NCBI GenBank assembly: GCA_046727435.1
Contig: JBKPCR010000157.1
Location: forward strand, 1 to 8,431
Direction of reading: 5' to 3'
Length of the DNA stretch: 8,431 bases
Source of the DNA: CAVPRW01 sp046727435 [NCBI: bacterium]
GTDB taxonomy: Bacteria > Tectomicrobia > Entotheonellia > J063
In this document: one piece after another, positions 1,740 through 7,413 of the stretch
How the letters are laid out: every line of letters starts with the position of its first letter
Numbering within the stretch: position 1 is the stretch's first letter
Notes under the pieces: model-generated
The model's database searches: none
Seen by the model: only the letters and a program-made list of their open reading frames with translations
Told to the model about the DNA's origin: nothing
Made by a program: the position numbers and the translations under genes

Positions 1740-2216
1740 CTATCGGCTCAAGACAGGCGGTAACCGATCCACCCCACTTGGCCGGACCTCTGTTACGGCC
1801 TGGAGGATGCGCTCTTCGAGGGCTTCAAAAACTTTGGCAAGTTCCTTGGCCTTGATCTCGAGCTGCACAGCACGCTTCCGCACCAGCCCCTCGTCGCTCA
1901 GACGATATTTGCGCTCGCCATGGACCAGGTAGAGGGTCTTGCCGTCGCAGACGAGGTTGCGGGTGCCGCCAAGCAATTCGACCGTGACGGTGACGGTGAA
2001 GAGGAAATTCTCCTGCGAGGGGGGGAGGCTACGATCATATTTAGGGTTGTCTTGGATATCACCTGCCAGAATCGGCTCACACCCAGTCATCAACGAGAGT
2101 TCTTTCCGGGAAAGGCTGGCTTGCGGGTTTCCCATAATGACAACTCGGTGTGGGAATTCCTCATCTGGAAACCCATAGCGATCTTTCCGAATGATTTCGC
2201 GTGTTTTCTCAAACAT
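1740..2216 (-). CDS. Small soluble protein of unknown function, partner of the amidoligase-like gene
   Basis: I do not recognise this family. From the chosen ATG at 2216 it has 158 residues with no membrane segment or signal peptide. The N-terminal half is charged (FEKTREIIRKDRYGFPDEEF) and contains a short hydrophobic strand, HRVVIMGNP (23-31). A beta region follows with an alternating FLFTVTVTVELLGG (71-84) and GKTLYLVHGERKYRL (92-106). It ends in one long amphipathic helix rich in Lys, Glu and Ala (about 115-144) and a Pro-rich tail. An alternative in-frame ATG at 2243 overlaps the stop of the upstream gene by four bases (ATGA) and would add nine residues. I prefer 2216 because AGGGAGG lies seven bases before it, whereas the upstream ATG has no proper Shine-Dalgarno sequence. 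Either way it is translationally close to the 677-residue gene and almost certainly co-transcribed with it. A role as an accessory or regulatory subunit is inference. Confidence 0.7.
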   Translation of the reverse strand: MFEKTREIIRKDRYGFPDEEFPHRVVIMGNPQASLSRKELSLMTGCEPILAGDIQDNPKYDRSLPPSQENFLFTVTVTVELLGGTRNLVCDGKTLYLVHGERKYRLSDEGLVRKRAVQLEIKAKELAKVFEALEERILQAVTEVRPSGVDRLPPVLSR

Positions 2217-2223
2217 AGCGGTC

Positions 2224-2230
2224 CCTCCCT
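2224..2230 (-). promoter_or_regulatory. Ribosome-binding site that decides the start of the small protein
   Basis: The minus strand reads AGGGAGG here, seven bases ahead of the ATG at 2216. The in-frame ATG at 2243 has only a weak AGGG immediately before it. This favours the shorter 158-residue product with a 23-base gap after the upstream stop codon. Confidence 0.5.
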
Positions 2231-2239
2231 CGCGAACCG

Positions 2240-4273
2240 TCATGACCCTATGCCGTCCACTGCGGACAGTCTTTTCAAGGGAAGTGCGTCGAACTTTAAG
2301 AGCTTAACCAGCTCACGTTGAATCGTACTAGGCTGCCGCTCGATCGTGAGCCCGAAGGACAGTCCATGGAAGAAGCGGTGTCGTTTCGAATACCTATTGT
2401 GAAGAACGATTTCGAACGCCTCCGCTTCGGTGGAAACGAGGCGGTTACTGTAGCATGAAACCAGCTTCATCTCCCGGTAGGTGGCTTTGGTAGTAAACCA
2501 GGTGTAGATACAGGCGCCGATCTCAAAGATGATCCCTGGGATGATACCGAATGGCAGGATCGTCCGCCGAATCTCACTGTGGAAGGCCACCTCTGGGAGA
2601 TGATGATAATCCATAGTGAGGCTTAAAATCAACAAAATAGTCCCAATGCTGAAGAGCATAATGATTCCCACCAAGGAATCGTAATTGGGCTTGAAATGAT
2701 AGAGGTGGTGATTGAGAAAGAATCCGTTGCCCTCGACAATTAGGCTATTCTTCTTGACGTGCAGGAGCTCGCAGGGGATGGTCTCTTCATACTCCGCCTT
2801 TTTCAGTCGAGTATCGAGCGAGCGTTCGAGATGGGACACTAGCTTTTGGACTTTGGAGCGTTTCAGCCCTGGATCGTGATAAATCAACTGGCGCTTATTG
2901 TCCTGACTATAGGTGATCAAGCCTCGAGGCCCAACCTGGGTAAATTCGAAATCGTGCATCCCGAACAACGCCGCGAAGGCGCGGTCATCGAATAGGCGAT
3001 CATCGAGGCTCTCGCGTCGCCCAGCACACTCGCGCCCAATCTCAACCGCTTGCTGAATGGCCTCGACCTGATGGAGCGGAATCACCCGCTCGGTCCCCTT
3101 AGGTTTGCCGCGCTGGCGGAAGACCACAGCATACTTCGTGCCCATGCCGGCACTGATGGCGGAGGGCTCGGTCTTATAGCTGATGTCGAGAGCCTCGAGC
3201 GTGGTCGGGATACTGGGTTGGACCTCGACAGACTGCCGTAGTGCGATATACTCTTCGCCCAAGGCATGAATCATGAGGTCATCGACGATCGGCACCTCAC
3301 CCTCAAGGCGAATGAGTTCATCGGTGCGATACGGGCTGCGATCGAGAAAGCCCTCAGCGACGGCCCTGACGAGGATATAGTCCCCAAGGGGACCATTCTT
3401 AAGGAGACCGCGCCGAAATTCGTGCTTGCTCAGAAGCCAACGCAGGATCTCCCGGTAGGACTTTTCCCCGTGAATCGGTACATCCCATCCGCCAACGGTG
3501 ATCTTATTGATTTTGCGGAGTGCGACGACGGTATTCCATTCCAGAGCCCAATTCCAGTGTTCGACATACTCCAGCACGGACAGGGCCAAATTCAGCCAGG
3601 CCTGCCGATAATTCAGCAACAACCTGTGCTTGGGTAGCGCCTGATACTCGCGCCAAGCCTGCTCGACGACTTGGTCGTCCCCGAAGACTTCGGAGAGGTC
3701 GAGTAGGTCTCCTTCAACGTCGGAAAGGACTTCCCGGTCCACCTCCACCTCGAAGTCCAGGCGGTAAACGGTCAGGATCTCCTTGCGAAACTTGGTACGG
3801 GTCGTGCGGACGTTGGGGACGCGGGACTTGGTGATTTGATCATAGGTAATGCGTTCGGAGACAAAGCCGCGCTCGATGACACCGATGGGCTGGTAGTTGC
3901 GATTGGGGTCGTGGCTAGCGCTGCTCTTACTGATATGAATATTGTTGGGAACGGCAAAGACCTCCTTGCCGGTGGCTTTCGAGAGCATTTCGGAAGCCTT
4001 GTAAAAGTCGCTCTCGATGCTCCCCAGCAAGCGATTTAGGGTAAGACTCAGCTTGGCGGTCTGCAGGTCGCGTAAGCTGTATAGGATCGGGAAGGTCGAG
4101 ATCTCGTAGTCGTCCCGGTCGAAATGCGCCGAGCCCCCCAGGTGGTGCATGCGTTCAAACCTGGGGCACATTCGGAGGTAGTCTTTGGCGAGAATGCGTT
4201 CCCCGAAGAGGGTTCGAAACTCGCACTCAACCTCCAGCCCAGCCACGAGAGAGTCTTGCTTGGTTGGCTTCAT
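2240..4273 (-). CDS. Membrane-anchored protein with N-terminal glutamate-cysteine-ligase-fold (amidoligase-like) domain
   Basis: This encodes 677 residues with no overall family that I can name. The N-terminus carries the sequence signature of carboxylate-amine ligases of the glutamate-cysteine ligase / COOH-NH2 ligase fold. The pieces are a first strand GLEVECEF (G12, E14, E16, E18), an acidic DDYEISTFP motif (D54, D55, E57), a helical segment, and then NNIHISKS (H113). In known members these acidic residues bind Mg-ATP and the strand-borne histidine lies in the active site, and the enzymes join a carboxylate to an amine through an acyl phosphate. The domain probably extends to about residue 340. 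A basic middle region (about 345-530) is unassigned. A two-helix membrane hairpin follows (about 533-553 and 570-592), which would leave both ends in the cytoplasm, and a basic 85-residue tail ends the protein. No Shine-Dalgarno sequence precedes the ATG at 4273, so initiation may be leaderless or weak. The stop overlaps or nearly abuts the small gene downstream. The coding frame is certain, the amidoligase assignment is moderate, and the substrate is unknown. Confidence 0.72.
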   Translation of the reverse strand: MKPTKQDSLVAGLEVECEFRTLFGERILAKDYLRMCPRFERMHHLGGSAHFDRDDYEISTFPILYSLRDLQTAKLSLTLNRLLGSIESDFYKASEMLSKATGKEVFAVPNNIHISKSSASHDPNRNYQPIGVIERGFVSERITYDQITKSRVPNVRTTRTKFRKEILTVYRLDFEVEVDREVLSDVEGDLLDLSEVFGDDQVVEQAWREYQALPKHRLLLNYRQAWLNLALSVLEYVEHWNWALEWNTVVALRKINKITVGGWDVPIHGEKSYREILRWLLSKHEFRRGLLKNGPLGDYILVRAVAEGFLDRSPYRTDELIRLEGEVPIVDDLMIHALGEEYIALRQSVEVQPSIPTTLEALDISYKTEPSAISAGMGTKYAVVFRQRGKPKGTERVIPLHQVEAIQQAVEIGRECAGRRESLDDRLFDDRAFAALFGMHDFEFTQVGPRGLITYSQDNKRQLIYHDPGLKRSKVQKLVSHLERSLDTRLKKAEYEETIPCELLHVKKNSLIVEGNGFFLNHHLYHFKPNYDSLVGIIMLFSIGTILLILSLTMDYHHLPEVAFHSEIRRTILPFGIIPGIIFEIGACIYTWFTTKATYREMKLVSCYSNRLVSTEAEAFEIVLHNRYSKRHRFFHGLSFGLTIERQPSTIQRELVKLLKFDALPLKRLSAVDGIGS

Positions 4274-4475: not shown

Positions 4476-5654
4476 TCATTGCTCCGTTGGAGGGATAGAG
4501 GTCTCTTTCTTCTGGACTTCGATGAGCAGGAGAGCTGGTCGGATCTCCGTGATCTCGACACCTGCGGGCAAATCGATCTGATTCTTCGTGAGCAGAAAGT
4601 AGTTGATCCCCTCTCGTACCTGTGCGAGGCTCACACGCGCGCGCACCGGACGCGACCGCATGGCTTCCAGGGCAAGTTGAGAGCCGCGTAAGCGCACGTT
4701 TACCTCACGGGGCACTTCGCCACGTAGCTCGATGGCAGGGGCGATCTGCTGGTACTCGACGGGGATCGTCATGGCGATCTCAGAGCCTTGCTGACCGGCC
4801 AGCGCCACCCATAACAACCCCGCCAACCCGACCGCCATACCCTTGGCCCAAAGATTATTGGTGAGAAGGGCCCACCAATTGCGCTTGTCCGCATCACCCG
4901 AGAGTGTATCCTGGAGTTCCTGCTCTAACTCCTGCTGCAAACGCGCCGGTTCAAAGAACGGGATCAGGGTGCCCTTGCGTGCCAGGGCAACGGTCCCGCG
5001 CTCCTCAGACACCAGCAGGCATAAGGCATCGCAGCGTTCGGTGAGGCCAATGGCGGCGCGGTGGCGAGCACCGTACTCAGAGGGGAGGCCAATCGCCGTA
5101 GTCATCGGTAGAAAACAGGCAGCGCGTTCAACGCGATTAGCTCGAACCACCACAGCCCCATCGTGGGTGGGGGATGGCGGCTGGAACAAGGTGCGGACGA
5201 GCTCGCGGCTGACGATCGCCTCCATGTGCACCCCTTCACGGAGGTATTCGTCGATCGCCTCGTGGCCGGGCAGCACGATCAGCGCACCTACCTTTTCACG
5301 CGCCATGTCGAAGACCGTTTCAGTCAGCTCAACTAGCGTTTCCCGCTGCAGTGTGATCGGCTGGCCGCGCAGCAGGTCGAGGGGGTTCATACGCTCGAGG
5401 ATGCGCCGGATTTCCGGCTGGAACACGATGACAATGACCAATAGAATGATCGACCACAGTGACTGAAATAACCACCCTGTCATCACCATCCCCGTCCATC
5501 GGGCCAGCAGTGATAGGAGACCGATGACCGCTAGACCTGCCAAGGCTCGCAGCGCACGGCTTTCCCGTACCCAGAGATAGAGCTGGTAGAGGAGAAAAGA
5601 TACCAACAGGATATCGATGACACTGTGTAACTGAAAATAACTAAAAAAGTCCAT
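4476..5654 (-). CDS. cdaA: Diadenylate cyclase CdaA fused to a YbbR domain
   Basis: This enzyme makes cyclic di-AMP from two ATP at the cytoplasmic face of the membrane. The order is the CdaA one: membrane helices at about 12-28, 36-52 and 62-78, FQPEIRRILER (78-88), then the DAC (DisA_N) domain at about 105-230. Both catalytic signatures are intact: DGA in SPTHDGAVVV (D165-A167) and RHR in YGARHRAAIGL (197-199). After a coiled, Gln/Glu-rich linker (238-250) a fourth membrane helix (about 271-287) leads to a YbbR-like beta domain (about 291-380) that should lie outside the cytoplasm. In Firmicutes CdaA (about 270 residues) and its YbbR-domain partner CdaR are separate adjacent genes. Here they form one 392-residue chain with a single YbbR unit. 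GGGAGGG at 5664-5670 supports the ATG at 5654. The gene is divergent from the glycosyltransferase and followed, 202 bases on, by the amidoligase-like gene. Confidence 0.93.
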   Translation of the reverse strand: MDFFSYFQLHSVIDILLVSFLLYQLYLWVRESRALRALAGLAVIGLLSLLARWTGMVMTGWLFQSLWSIILLVIVIVFQPEIRRILERMNPLDLLRGQPITLQRETLVELTETVFDMAREKVGALIVLPGHEAIDEYLREGVHMEAIVSRELVRTLFQPPSPTHDGAVVVRANRVERAACFLPMTTAIGLPSEYGARHRAAIGLTERCDALCLLVSEERGTVALARKGTLIPFFEPARLQQELEQELQDTLSGDADKRNWWALLTNNLWAKGMAVGLAGLLWVALAGQQGSEIAMTIPVEYQQIAPAIELRGEVPREVNVRLRGSQLALEAMRSRPVRARVSLAQVREGINYFLLTKNQIDLPAGVEITEIRPALLLIEVQKKETSIPPTEQ

Positions 5655-5835: not shown

Positions 5836-7413
5836 ATGCACTCGCTGCTAGCGCGCGCACCTTCGTGGCAGACATGGGGGGCATATGGCCTGCTCTTTCT
5901 CATCTTCGTTACCATCACTTATGACCACTCTAAAGCCTGGAATAATCCTAACCGAGGGGATCAAGATCTTGACCTCACCCTGGGCCTCAAGATCCGGCAT
6001 TTTGAAGCCCTGAGCGATGGCTACCACCATCCCCTCCTCCCGGCCCTGGTTGCCCCTTTTGCTGAAAAAGCTCTAATCTACTTCGCCAAAGCCAAGTTGG
6101 TCAATGTTGCCATCGGAGCCCTGGCATTCTGGGTGATCGCATGGGTCGGGTGGCAACTGGTCGGACCCGCTCCAACCTTTCTGGCTCTCATCGCCATCGC
6201 TCCAGGCCTGTCGAATAAGAGCGCGGAATTCACTGCCGAACCTCTGTTGCTGATGCTCGTTGCGCTGACCTTCTACTGCTTGGTCAGAGGCTTCGAGCGG
6301 CCAGGGTTCTGGGGCTTCGCTGGAGCCTCCGCCGGCTTTGCCTATCTGACGAAAGGGTCCGGCCTGCTCTTACTGCTTGCCTATGCCCTGACGGTGTGCA
6401 GAAGTGGGTCAAAGCTCGTGTCCACCCCACGCTTTTGGCTCTTTCCGCTGGCGTTTGTGCTCGTTGCTTCACCGTTACTGGCCCATAACTGGCGGGTCTT
6501 TGGTTCACCGATCTTCAACTACAACACCACTCATGTCATCTGGCTTGACTATACAGAAGAGCAGATGATCATGTTCGATAAGGGCCTACCGACGATGTTT
6601 TCCTATCTCGCTACGCACAGCCTTGCAGATATACTGCATCGGTTTCTCAGAGGACTCGTGCGGGTGCGTGGGGTCGAATGGGTCTGGCCGTTCCTGGTCG
6701 CCTTTGTCTTCATACCCAAAAGGTGGTTCACCTACTTTCAGGTTCCTCCTACAAAGCAACCGATGGTCATGGTCGCCAGCTCATTGGTGTTGACTTTCTA
6801 TCTCGCCTTCTCGTGGAGCGCTGTCGTCCAGCGTGGCATACGCTATCTCTTGCCGATCTTTCCTATCATCTTGCTGATGCTGGCGGATATCCTCGTCTAT
6901 TATGCAGCCCGACTCGTCTGCCGATGGTGGCCATCCCCGAGGCCGGAACGCCTGACCAGGCTGGCGATGTGCGGGCTGCTAGTAGCGCTGAGCGTGGTCT
7001 GGCTGGTGCAAATTGGCTGGCGGGATTTCCCTGCCCCCCTGGCCATCGATTTTGAGGATCAGGCAACGGCCGAGATGTATCGCCTGCTGGATACGCCAGC
7101 GTTCGATGGCAAACAGGTGCTCTTTGGGCCGAGCCATGAGTTCACGGGGACCTGGCTCTTCCGGCACCATGTGGCGTTTCCCATCATCCCCCCTGGGCTA
7201 TCCGCGGCGGAGTTTGTCGCCTGGCTCAAACGGGCTGGAATCGACTATATACTTGCTAATCGAGAGATGATCAGGCGTCGTCGACACAGCGTGGGCGAAC
7301 ATTTGGCGTATTTGCCAGGCGAAGGGGTGCAGATATTACGGTTGGAACCGGAATGGGAGGTCGTCTACCAGGGGCCGCCACCGTCGAGGTTTGTGCTGAT
7401 TCGTGTGCGCTAG
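5836..7413 (+). CDS. GT-C family membrane glycosyltransferase (ArnT/PMT-like, GT39/GT83 type)
   Basis: This is a 525-residue polytopic membrane protein with about 9-11 hydrophobic helices up to residue 395 and a soluble C-terminal domain (about 400-525). It has the layout of GT-C enzymes that move a sugar from a polyprenyl phosphate donor on the outer face of the membrane. The first external loop carries NRGDQDLDLTLG, with D42 and D44 as candidate catalytic acids, followed by YHHPLLPAL (63-71), the counterpart of the RPPLYP-type motif. FTAEPLLLM (132-140) and AYLTKGSGLL (169-178) match the AE and LTKG elements of the ArnT/PMT group, and RYLLPIFP (336-343) is the usual RY-LP motif. AGGAG at 5822-5826 supports the ATG at 5836. 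The acceptor (lipid, glycan or protein) cannot be read from sequence. It lies alone between the divergent cyclase and the convergent PEP carboxykinase, so context gives no substrate clue. Confidence 0.85.
   Translation: MHSLLARAPSWQTWGAYGLLFLIFVTITYDHSKAWNNPNRGDQDLDLTLGLKIRHFEALSDGYHHPLLPALVAPFAEKALIYFAKAKLVNVAIGALAFWVIAWVGWQLVGPAPTFLALIAIAPGLSNKSAEFTAEPLLLMLVALTFYCLVRGFERPGFWGFAGASAGFAYLTKGSGLLLLLAYALTVCRSGSKLVSTPRFWLFPLAFVLVASPLLAHNWRVFGSPIFNYNTTHVIWLDYTEEQMIMFDKGLPTMFSYLATHSLADILHRFLRGLVRVRGVEWVWPFLVAFVFIPKRWFTYFQVPPTKQPMVMVASSLVLTFYLAFSWSAVVQRGIRYLLPIFPIILLMLADILVYYAARLVCRWWPSPRPERLTRLAMCGLLVALSVVWLVQIGWRDFPAPLAIDFEDQATAEMYRLLDTPAFDGKQVLFGPSHEFTGTWLFRHHVAFPIIPPGLSAAEFVAWLKRAGIDYILANREMIRRRRHSVGEHLAYLPGEGVQILRLEPEWEVVYQGPPPSRFVLIRVR

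Follow-up and report, generated by a model that had tools for sequence, protein, structure and literature searches.

The 8,431-nucleotide stretch studied here (hereafter the window; positions 1 to 8,431 of contig JBKPCR010000157.1, assembly GCA_046727435.1) carries on its minus strand a gene for a 677-amino-acid protein (2240..4273), which we tentatively interpret, with a probability of about 0.45, as a divergent and probably membrane-anchored ligase-like protein of the glutamine synthetase (GS) fold. The protein displays three ordered motifs near its N-terminus, most of whose residues are conserved in one relative, and a hydrophobic hairpin near its C-terminus. A GS fold is somewhat likelier than not for the N-terminal part, and active ligation is less certain. 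If this domain is a ligase, it would add a branch to the superfamily that holds glutamine synthetase and the ubiquitin-like Pup system; to our knowledge, the conjugation of protein or lipid at the bacterial membrane is little explored. The ligase claim is built on short motifs and a weak model, and its worth is that of a defined, testable lead.

The open reading frame (ORF) of the protein starts with ATG at 4273 and stops at 2240-2242, as derived from the ORF list together with the G+C content at third codon positions, hydropathy and charge. A random open frame of 677 codons would be expected with a probability of about 2e-11 at the composition of the window, and the codon-position base composition of the ORF is like that of the neighbouring genes; the ORF is not a product of chance. 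The sole relative found is an ORF on contig RFHZ01000846.1 (locus L001) of the metagenome-assembled genome 'Nitrospinota bacterium isolate J063' (genome G001), which shares the start of the window protein and is 60% identical to it over residues 6-455, where its contig ends, short of the hairpin and of the partner gene described below. Of the 268 residues identical in both proteins, 151 are encoded by differing codons, and the differences among the 450 codons fall on third (270), first (137) and second positions (108). Since identical residues often differ in codon and third positions differ most, these data point to selection on the protein sequence.

All three motifs named in the first-pass annotation (G-x-E-x-E, DDYEIST and NNIHIS) were found at the residues given there. 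The first, GLEVE (residues 12-16, 4226..4240, minus strand as for all features of this gene), is of the GhExE type as defined in PMC2588565, and reads GLDIE in L001. The second, D54-D-Y-E57-I-S-T60, belongs to an acidic hairpin, GGSAHFDRDDYEISTFP (residues 46-62, 4088..4138), in which L001 has H50, D52, D54, D55 and E57 unchanged. The third, NNIHIS (residues 110-115, 3929..3946), is a candidate for core strand 4, with N110, N111, H113, I114 and S115 invariant. Along with the acidic hairpin residues and those of the third motif, E16 is also unchanged in L001, the substitutions being E14 to D, V15 to I and I112 to V. Thus, of the four residues singled out by the first-pass annotation, E16, E57 and H113 are conserved, and E14 is replaced by aspartate. 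An aspartate occupies the place of E14 in 9 of the 9 COOH-NH2 ligases fetched. As a separate observation, the GCS2-family ORFs in loci L040 and L041 open with G-x-D-W-E and not with G-x-E-x-E, an aspartate at the first metal-site position being recurrent in the superfamily.

The frequency of the ordered motif trio was determined with a pattern that was written after the window had been seen and is therefore biased toward the window protein, a point against the ligase reading that applies to all the counts that follow. The trio was detected in 29 of 48 reference GS-fold ligases, namely in 8 of 8 proteins of the Pup-ligase family and 9 of 9 COOH-NH2 ligases of type 2, in 11 of 25 GCS2 proteins and in one of six Amidoligase_2 proteins, five of these six being represented by the aligned stretch only. 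In 1.2 Mb of genome G003, 4 of 708 non-overlapping ORFs matched (2/708 with a strict pattern); one of them is a GCS2 gene (at 2331494), and a second GCS2 gene of the same stretch (near 1204931) escapes the pattern. The strict pattern matched one of the 706 non-GCS2 ORFs. The trio starts at residue 12 in the window protein, near the N-terminus like most references, and at residues 37, 69 and 94 in the three other decoy matches. Shuffles of the first 240 residues of the protein matched in 0.735% (loose) and 0.035% (strict) of cases. In a first decoy set of 66 ORFs there were four matches, every one a Pup_ligase gene. Among 394 ORFs from a broader range of loci, most of which had been fetched for these families, 32 matched: L001, 27 members of the reference families as judged by their first residues, and four others (L008, L013, L029 and L038), whose link to the families is their position in loci fetched for them.

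The superfamily is described in PMC2588565 by a six-stranded saddle sheet of order 231465 with helices after strands 3 and 6, an Ex[EH] motif in strand 1, acidic residues in strands 2/3, [HD]x[NH] in strand 4 ([HQ]x[NH] in PafA), arginines in and before strand 5 and Ex[RK]x2D in strand 6 ([QH]x4D in PafA). In the window protein, the strand-1 pattern is present as G12-L-E14-V-E16. The invariant D52, D54, D55 and E57 would fall in strands 2/3, a placement resting on a strand at residues 59-65 in a low-confidence model, and 14 arginines within residues 101-345 are invariant between the window protein and L001, strand 5 itself being unplaced.

Structure models were generated by AlphaFold2 from two sequences only, and the full-length model was excluded from all claims on the fold. 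The model of residues 1-345 contains, at low confidence, a strand at 11-21, the strand at 59-65, a helix at 72-101 and a strand at 105-116, the last covering NNIHIS. This order of elements fits the GS fold, since a helix between strands 3 and 4 is described in PMC2588565. When the 442 PDB chains ranked top by Foldseek were re-aligned with this model (440 aligned), 12 of the 50 rows listed corresponded to GS, GmaS or plant glutamate-cysteine ligase (GCL), for example 7w85, 7cql and 2gwc, with Z of 3.5-4.2 and 8-14% identity; their alignments were the longest of these 50 rows (139-145 residues, the next being 135), and the result is suggestive only, because unrelated folds reach equal or higher Z. 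The alignment with Escherichia coli GS (7w85) opens by pairing residue 3 with 118, and E14/E16 would fall at 129/131 if no gap intervenes; the GPEPE of E. coli GlnA has E130/E132 (counting Met1) as the strand-1 glutamates, so that strand 1 is apparently in register.

Several results weigh against a GS-fold ligase. The strand-4 motif is inexact, with only one of the two positions fitting in either register (N111-I-H113 or H113-I-S115); the literal pattern occurs at residues 122, 239, 457 and 555 and is not conserved in L001 where the two can be compared. Ex[RK]x2D is found nowhere in the 677 residues, and [QH]x4D only at residues 50 and 462, the latter past the end of L001; no conserved strand-6 motif was recognisable. 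Model confidence is low, with a predicted local distance difference test score (pLDDT) of 33 for the full-length protein and 47 for residues 1-345 (predicted template modelling score 0.42). A Foldseek search with the latter model gave no match at E 0.001 in the PDB or the viral library, and none of the 50 PDB matches it listed is a GS-fold ligase. In the re-alignment, polymerases, IS608 transposases and adenylyl cyclases appeared at equal or higher Z (to 5.0).

Sequence comparison also counts against the ligase reading. The 677-residue protein has no match at E <=1 in Pfam, NCBIfam, PHROGs or PADLOC, and raising the Pfam limit to E 10 gave no family for it and only Pes-10 (E 0.061) for L001; PF12224 (Amidoligase_2), PF14395 (COOH-NH2 ligase) and PF04107 (GCS2) were thus without a Pfam match, and the matches among PDB sequences were at chance level only (E >=0.058). 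Comparison by hhalign with four reference profiles was negative as well, the best probability being 2% and out of register. This is weak counter-evidence, because two-sequence profiles of known families also missed one another (9% at best); when every row was used, GCS2 and COOH-NH2 ligase were the only pair to detect each other (65-75%). The local hhalign alignments, at noise-level scores, do pair the strand-1 motifs with those of Amidoligase_2 (10-20 to 26-36) and COOH-NH2 ligase (9-53 to 6-49). On the whole, hhalign yielded no signal that could be used. Smith-Waterman group means were near chance (mean z 0.2-0.7 for the window protein and 0.0-0.9 for L001, vs -0.1 and -0.15 for decoys), and z >=2 was reached in 1 of 50 comparisons for the window protein and 5 of 50 for L001, vs 5 and 4 of 120 for decoys. 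One alignment, of L001 residues 43-147 with residues 50-148 of a PafA (locus L009), is in register at a z of just 2.1-2.2, as one of 14 comparisons in one run and of 50 per query in another; the three others listed with z over 2.4 do not align in register. The profile and pairwise tests have little power.

The fold proposed in the first-pass annotation therefore stands in part: ordered motifs rare in decoys, the order of modelled elements and 12 of 50 PDB rows speak for it, and the lack of profile, pairwise or Foldseek significance, a pLDDT of 47 and the lack of a recognisable conserved strand-6 motif speak against it. There is a real chance that the protein is instead an orphan membrane protein whose fold is new or unrelated to GS, its three short motifs being coincidental or otherwise employed. 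No sequence or fold search gave significant similarity, the pattern was chosen post hoc and its loose form matches 3 of 706 ORFs not known as GS-fold, and two motifs that define the superfamily are inexact or unplaced. The invariance of the most diagnostic residues in a relative of 60% identity, a trio beginning close to the N-terminus as in most references and a low-confidence model with a fitting order of elements speak against this reading. The replacement of E14 by D in L001, the substitution in strand 4 and the unrecognisable strand-6 motif would also suit a GS-fold domain that is no longer catalytic and serves as a nucleotide- or metabolite-sensing regulator within a membrane protein; we consider this unlikely, as invariant E16, D52, D54, D55, E57 and H113, together with the 14 arginines of residues 101-345, suggest a working polar site.

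The fold comparison also brought up a nucleotide-handling domain of ferredoxin-like type, such as that of nucleotidyl cyclases: the best Foldseek rows include the guanylyl cyclase Cya2 (E 0.47-0.83) and a viral protein with a guanylate-cyclase domain (E 0.22, probability 0.57), and an adenylyl cyclase reached Z 4.2 on re-alignment. This interpretation is highly improbable, given that every one of these matches is non-significant, that the alignments extend to at most 135 residues vs 139-145 for GS, and that no cyclase family was found in Pfam.

Under the GS-fold ligase interpretation, a curved sheet in the N-terminal half would bind Mg-ATP through E14/E16 (strand 1), D52/E57 (strands 2-3) and H113 (strand 4). 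A carboxylate could then be phosphorylated and passed to an amine, yielding an amide on a substrate that is associated with the membrane or delivered by it; according to PMC2588565, enzymes of the superfamily usually act on carboxylates of the glutamate type, in amino acids, peptides or proteins. The two-helix hairpin would hold the protein at the cytoplasmic face of the membrane, and the downstream gene may encode a translationally coupled accessory protein. A bolder version, in which the pair represents a new and rare family of GS-fold ligases that are anchored in the membrane, have a small partner of their own and attach an amino acid, a peptide or this partner to lipids or membrane proteins by a chemistry distinct from pupylation and from that of the glutathione type, seems to us a long shot.

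The protein is laid out as a soluble part (residues ~1-529), followed by the hydrophobic hairpin and a basic tail. Hydropathy revealed two hydrophobic segments at about residues 530-557 and 570-595, in agreement with the two-helix hairpin of the first-pass annotation. The first was delimited at residues ~532-552 (2618..2680) and the second at ~572-595 (2489..2560), and helices at 533-552 and 576-595, respectively, appear in the very low-confidence full-length model. The basic tail was likewise verified, with 14 K/R and 8 D/E in the last 82 residues, and the 'unassigned basic region' said to precede the hairpin was not confirmed as basic (27 K/R and 24 D/E in residues 346-529, 19 K/R and 30 D/E in residues 176-345). 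Because of the hairpin and the basic tail, the simplest topology would have both termini in the cytoplasm.

The downstream partner ORF lies on the same strand (1740..2216). Its two possible starts, ATG 2243 (167 amino acids, with a 4-base ATGA overlap) and ATG 2216 (158 amino acids, after a 23-base gap), agree with the overlap and the gap given in the first-pass annotation, and both ORFs are genuine. The shorter product is likelier, since a ribosome-binding-like AGGGAGGG (2223..2230) stands 6 bases 5′ of ATG 2216. Its likeness to the CT0912-like C-terminal domain (PF22087) stands at E ~9e-4 and 19.3-19.5 bits, under the 27-bit Pfam cut-off. A genome search gave a single match in 386 genomes (E 4.5e-4 per genome), to a genuine CT0912-like protein (E 1.1e-80; PDB relative 3gn6); the two likenesses are not independent, because the same residues underlie both. 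Partner residues 33-111 align with a CT0912-like protein at 29% identity, with G-D-x3-N-P-K and D-G-x-T-x-Y-L-x-H-G in common, and the ABM-like domain with which the matching protein begins is missing from the partner. From its sequence, the partner is possibly a ferredoxin-like accessory protein. It has no match of its own in PDB sequences, phages, plasmids or viral contigs, and its absence from the matches in G001 is uninformative, the contig of L001 ending at residue 455. A two-gene system is unsupported, because the sequence of the sole relative stops ahead of the hairpin and the partner.

The 677-residue gene is rare, being found only in G001, with the reservation that remote homologues may have escaped detection. 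Whole-genome searches placed it in one of the five genomes of the phylum of G001 and in one of 386 relatives of G001, and it was absent from the phyla of G176 (0/3 genomes), G300 (0/45) and G230 (0/95), the last chosen because G230 has the closest phosphoenolpyruvate carboxykinase (PEPCK; 70%). A weak row from G176 in the search of 386 relatives (E 1.6e-4) was set aside, as it was not recovered with profile A1; judged by its sequence, the matching protein is presumably of the DUF523/DUF1722 type. Neither the 50,697 phage records nor the 72,556 plasmid records searched by tblastn (E <=1) gave a match, and no homologue was found in the viral contigs searched. A scan of genome contigs across the whole collection used six exact peptide patterns and is sensitive to close relatives only. 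The neighbourhood of L001 is unlike that of the window, its upstream gene, which we take to encode a RimO/MiaB-type protein, being on the opposite strand. Synteny with G230 and G359 was limited to pckG. Separately, matches to PEPCK (GTP) spanned a stop codon in G005, G181, G370, G124, G177, G152, G113, G335, G283, G094, G155 and G080, possibly by overrun of the alignment past the gene end.

Upstream of the 677-residue gene, on the same strand and 202 bases apart, lies the gene for the diadenylate cyclase CdaA. Between positions 1500 and 4700 there are no terminator-like sites (3.0 expected) and four promoter-like sites (1.2 expected), the interval from cdaA to the 677-residue gene being free of them. 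The CdaA protein (4476-5654, minus; 392 amino acids) scores above the cut-off of TIGR00159 and shows a weak C-terminal YbbR-like stretch (E 0.026); CdaA and YbbR/CdaR are separate genes as a rule. A 192-amino-acid ORF (550-1128, minus) has no match in Pfam, NCBIfam or PHROGs at E <=1. The sole Pfam match of a 525-amino-acid hydrophobic protein (5836-7413, plus) is a sub-threshold and probably spurious 7tm_3; by eye, we take it to be of the GT39/ArnT glycosyltransferase kind.

A Pup system and a defence system were both considered for the window and dropped, the former because PF03136 did not match and no neighbour is Pup-like, the latter for want of PADLOC support. PF03136 (Pup ligase/Dop) did not match the 677-residue protein at E <=1 or <=10, and as a control it gave E 5e-134 to 7e-180 in 5/5 genomes of the phylum of G001. 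No co-directional small ORF with a C-terminal G[EQ] was found, the partner ending in L-S-R; of the 78 window ORFs of 40-120 amino acids, one ends in GE, on the opposite strand (1482-1622). In the control locus L072, 2 of 71 such ORFs end in GE, and one of these, of 98 amino acids and ending in GGE, adjoins a Pup_ligase gene. As side observations, the five genomes of this small phylum (G001-G005; loci L004-L011) each carry at least two Pup_ligase (PF03136) genes. In G001, the 98-residue Pup-like ORF lies beside such genes on contig C873 (L072, 2708-3004), and a second, more divergent Pup_ligase pair (E 1.7e-145 and 9.2e-134) on contig C895 (L071, 3439-6607) represents a second system or contamination.

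Compared with known systems, the window protein is like GS, GmaS and plant GCL in its apparent strand-1 register, and unlike them in that its model is of low confidence and its Z is tied with unrelated folds. With GCS2, COOH-NH2 ligase type 2 and Amidoligase_2 it shares an ordered N-terminal G-x-E/D-x-E, an acidic residue before E-hydrophobic and an H-containing strand. It differs from them by a long extra region with the hydrophobic hairpin, and its N-I-H-I-S contrasts with the H-x-H of the COOH-NH2 ligase (265 amino acids) and the Amidoligase_2 (385 amino acids) of phage UFV-P2. The first-pass annotation knew of no described system with this arrangement. The arrangement is unnamed in the literature matches listed on ligases and on membrane plus ligase. 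Membrane-anchored ligases of the superfamily are known: Iyer et al. (2008, PMC2588565), who place Pup ligases in the GS-fold superfamily, report transmembrane insertions in the PafA-like Pup ligases of Plesiocystis and Rhodopirellula, so that the window protein may be no more than a variant of a known ligase type. PafA-like Pup ligases resemble it in the GhExE of strand 1 and the acidic residues of strands 2-3. In Plesiocystis and Rhodopirellula, as described there, the ligase has a neighbouring Pup gene, the product of the linked gene is a membrane protein, and four membrane helices follow core strand 4, whereas the window protein has a two-helix hairpin near its C-terminus; if it is a ligase, it would thus be tied to the membrane by a route unlike that of the described Pup ligases with inserted helices.

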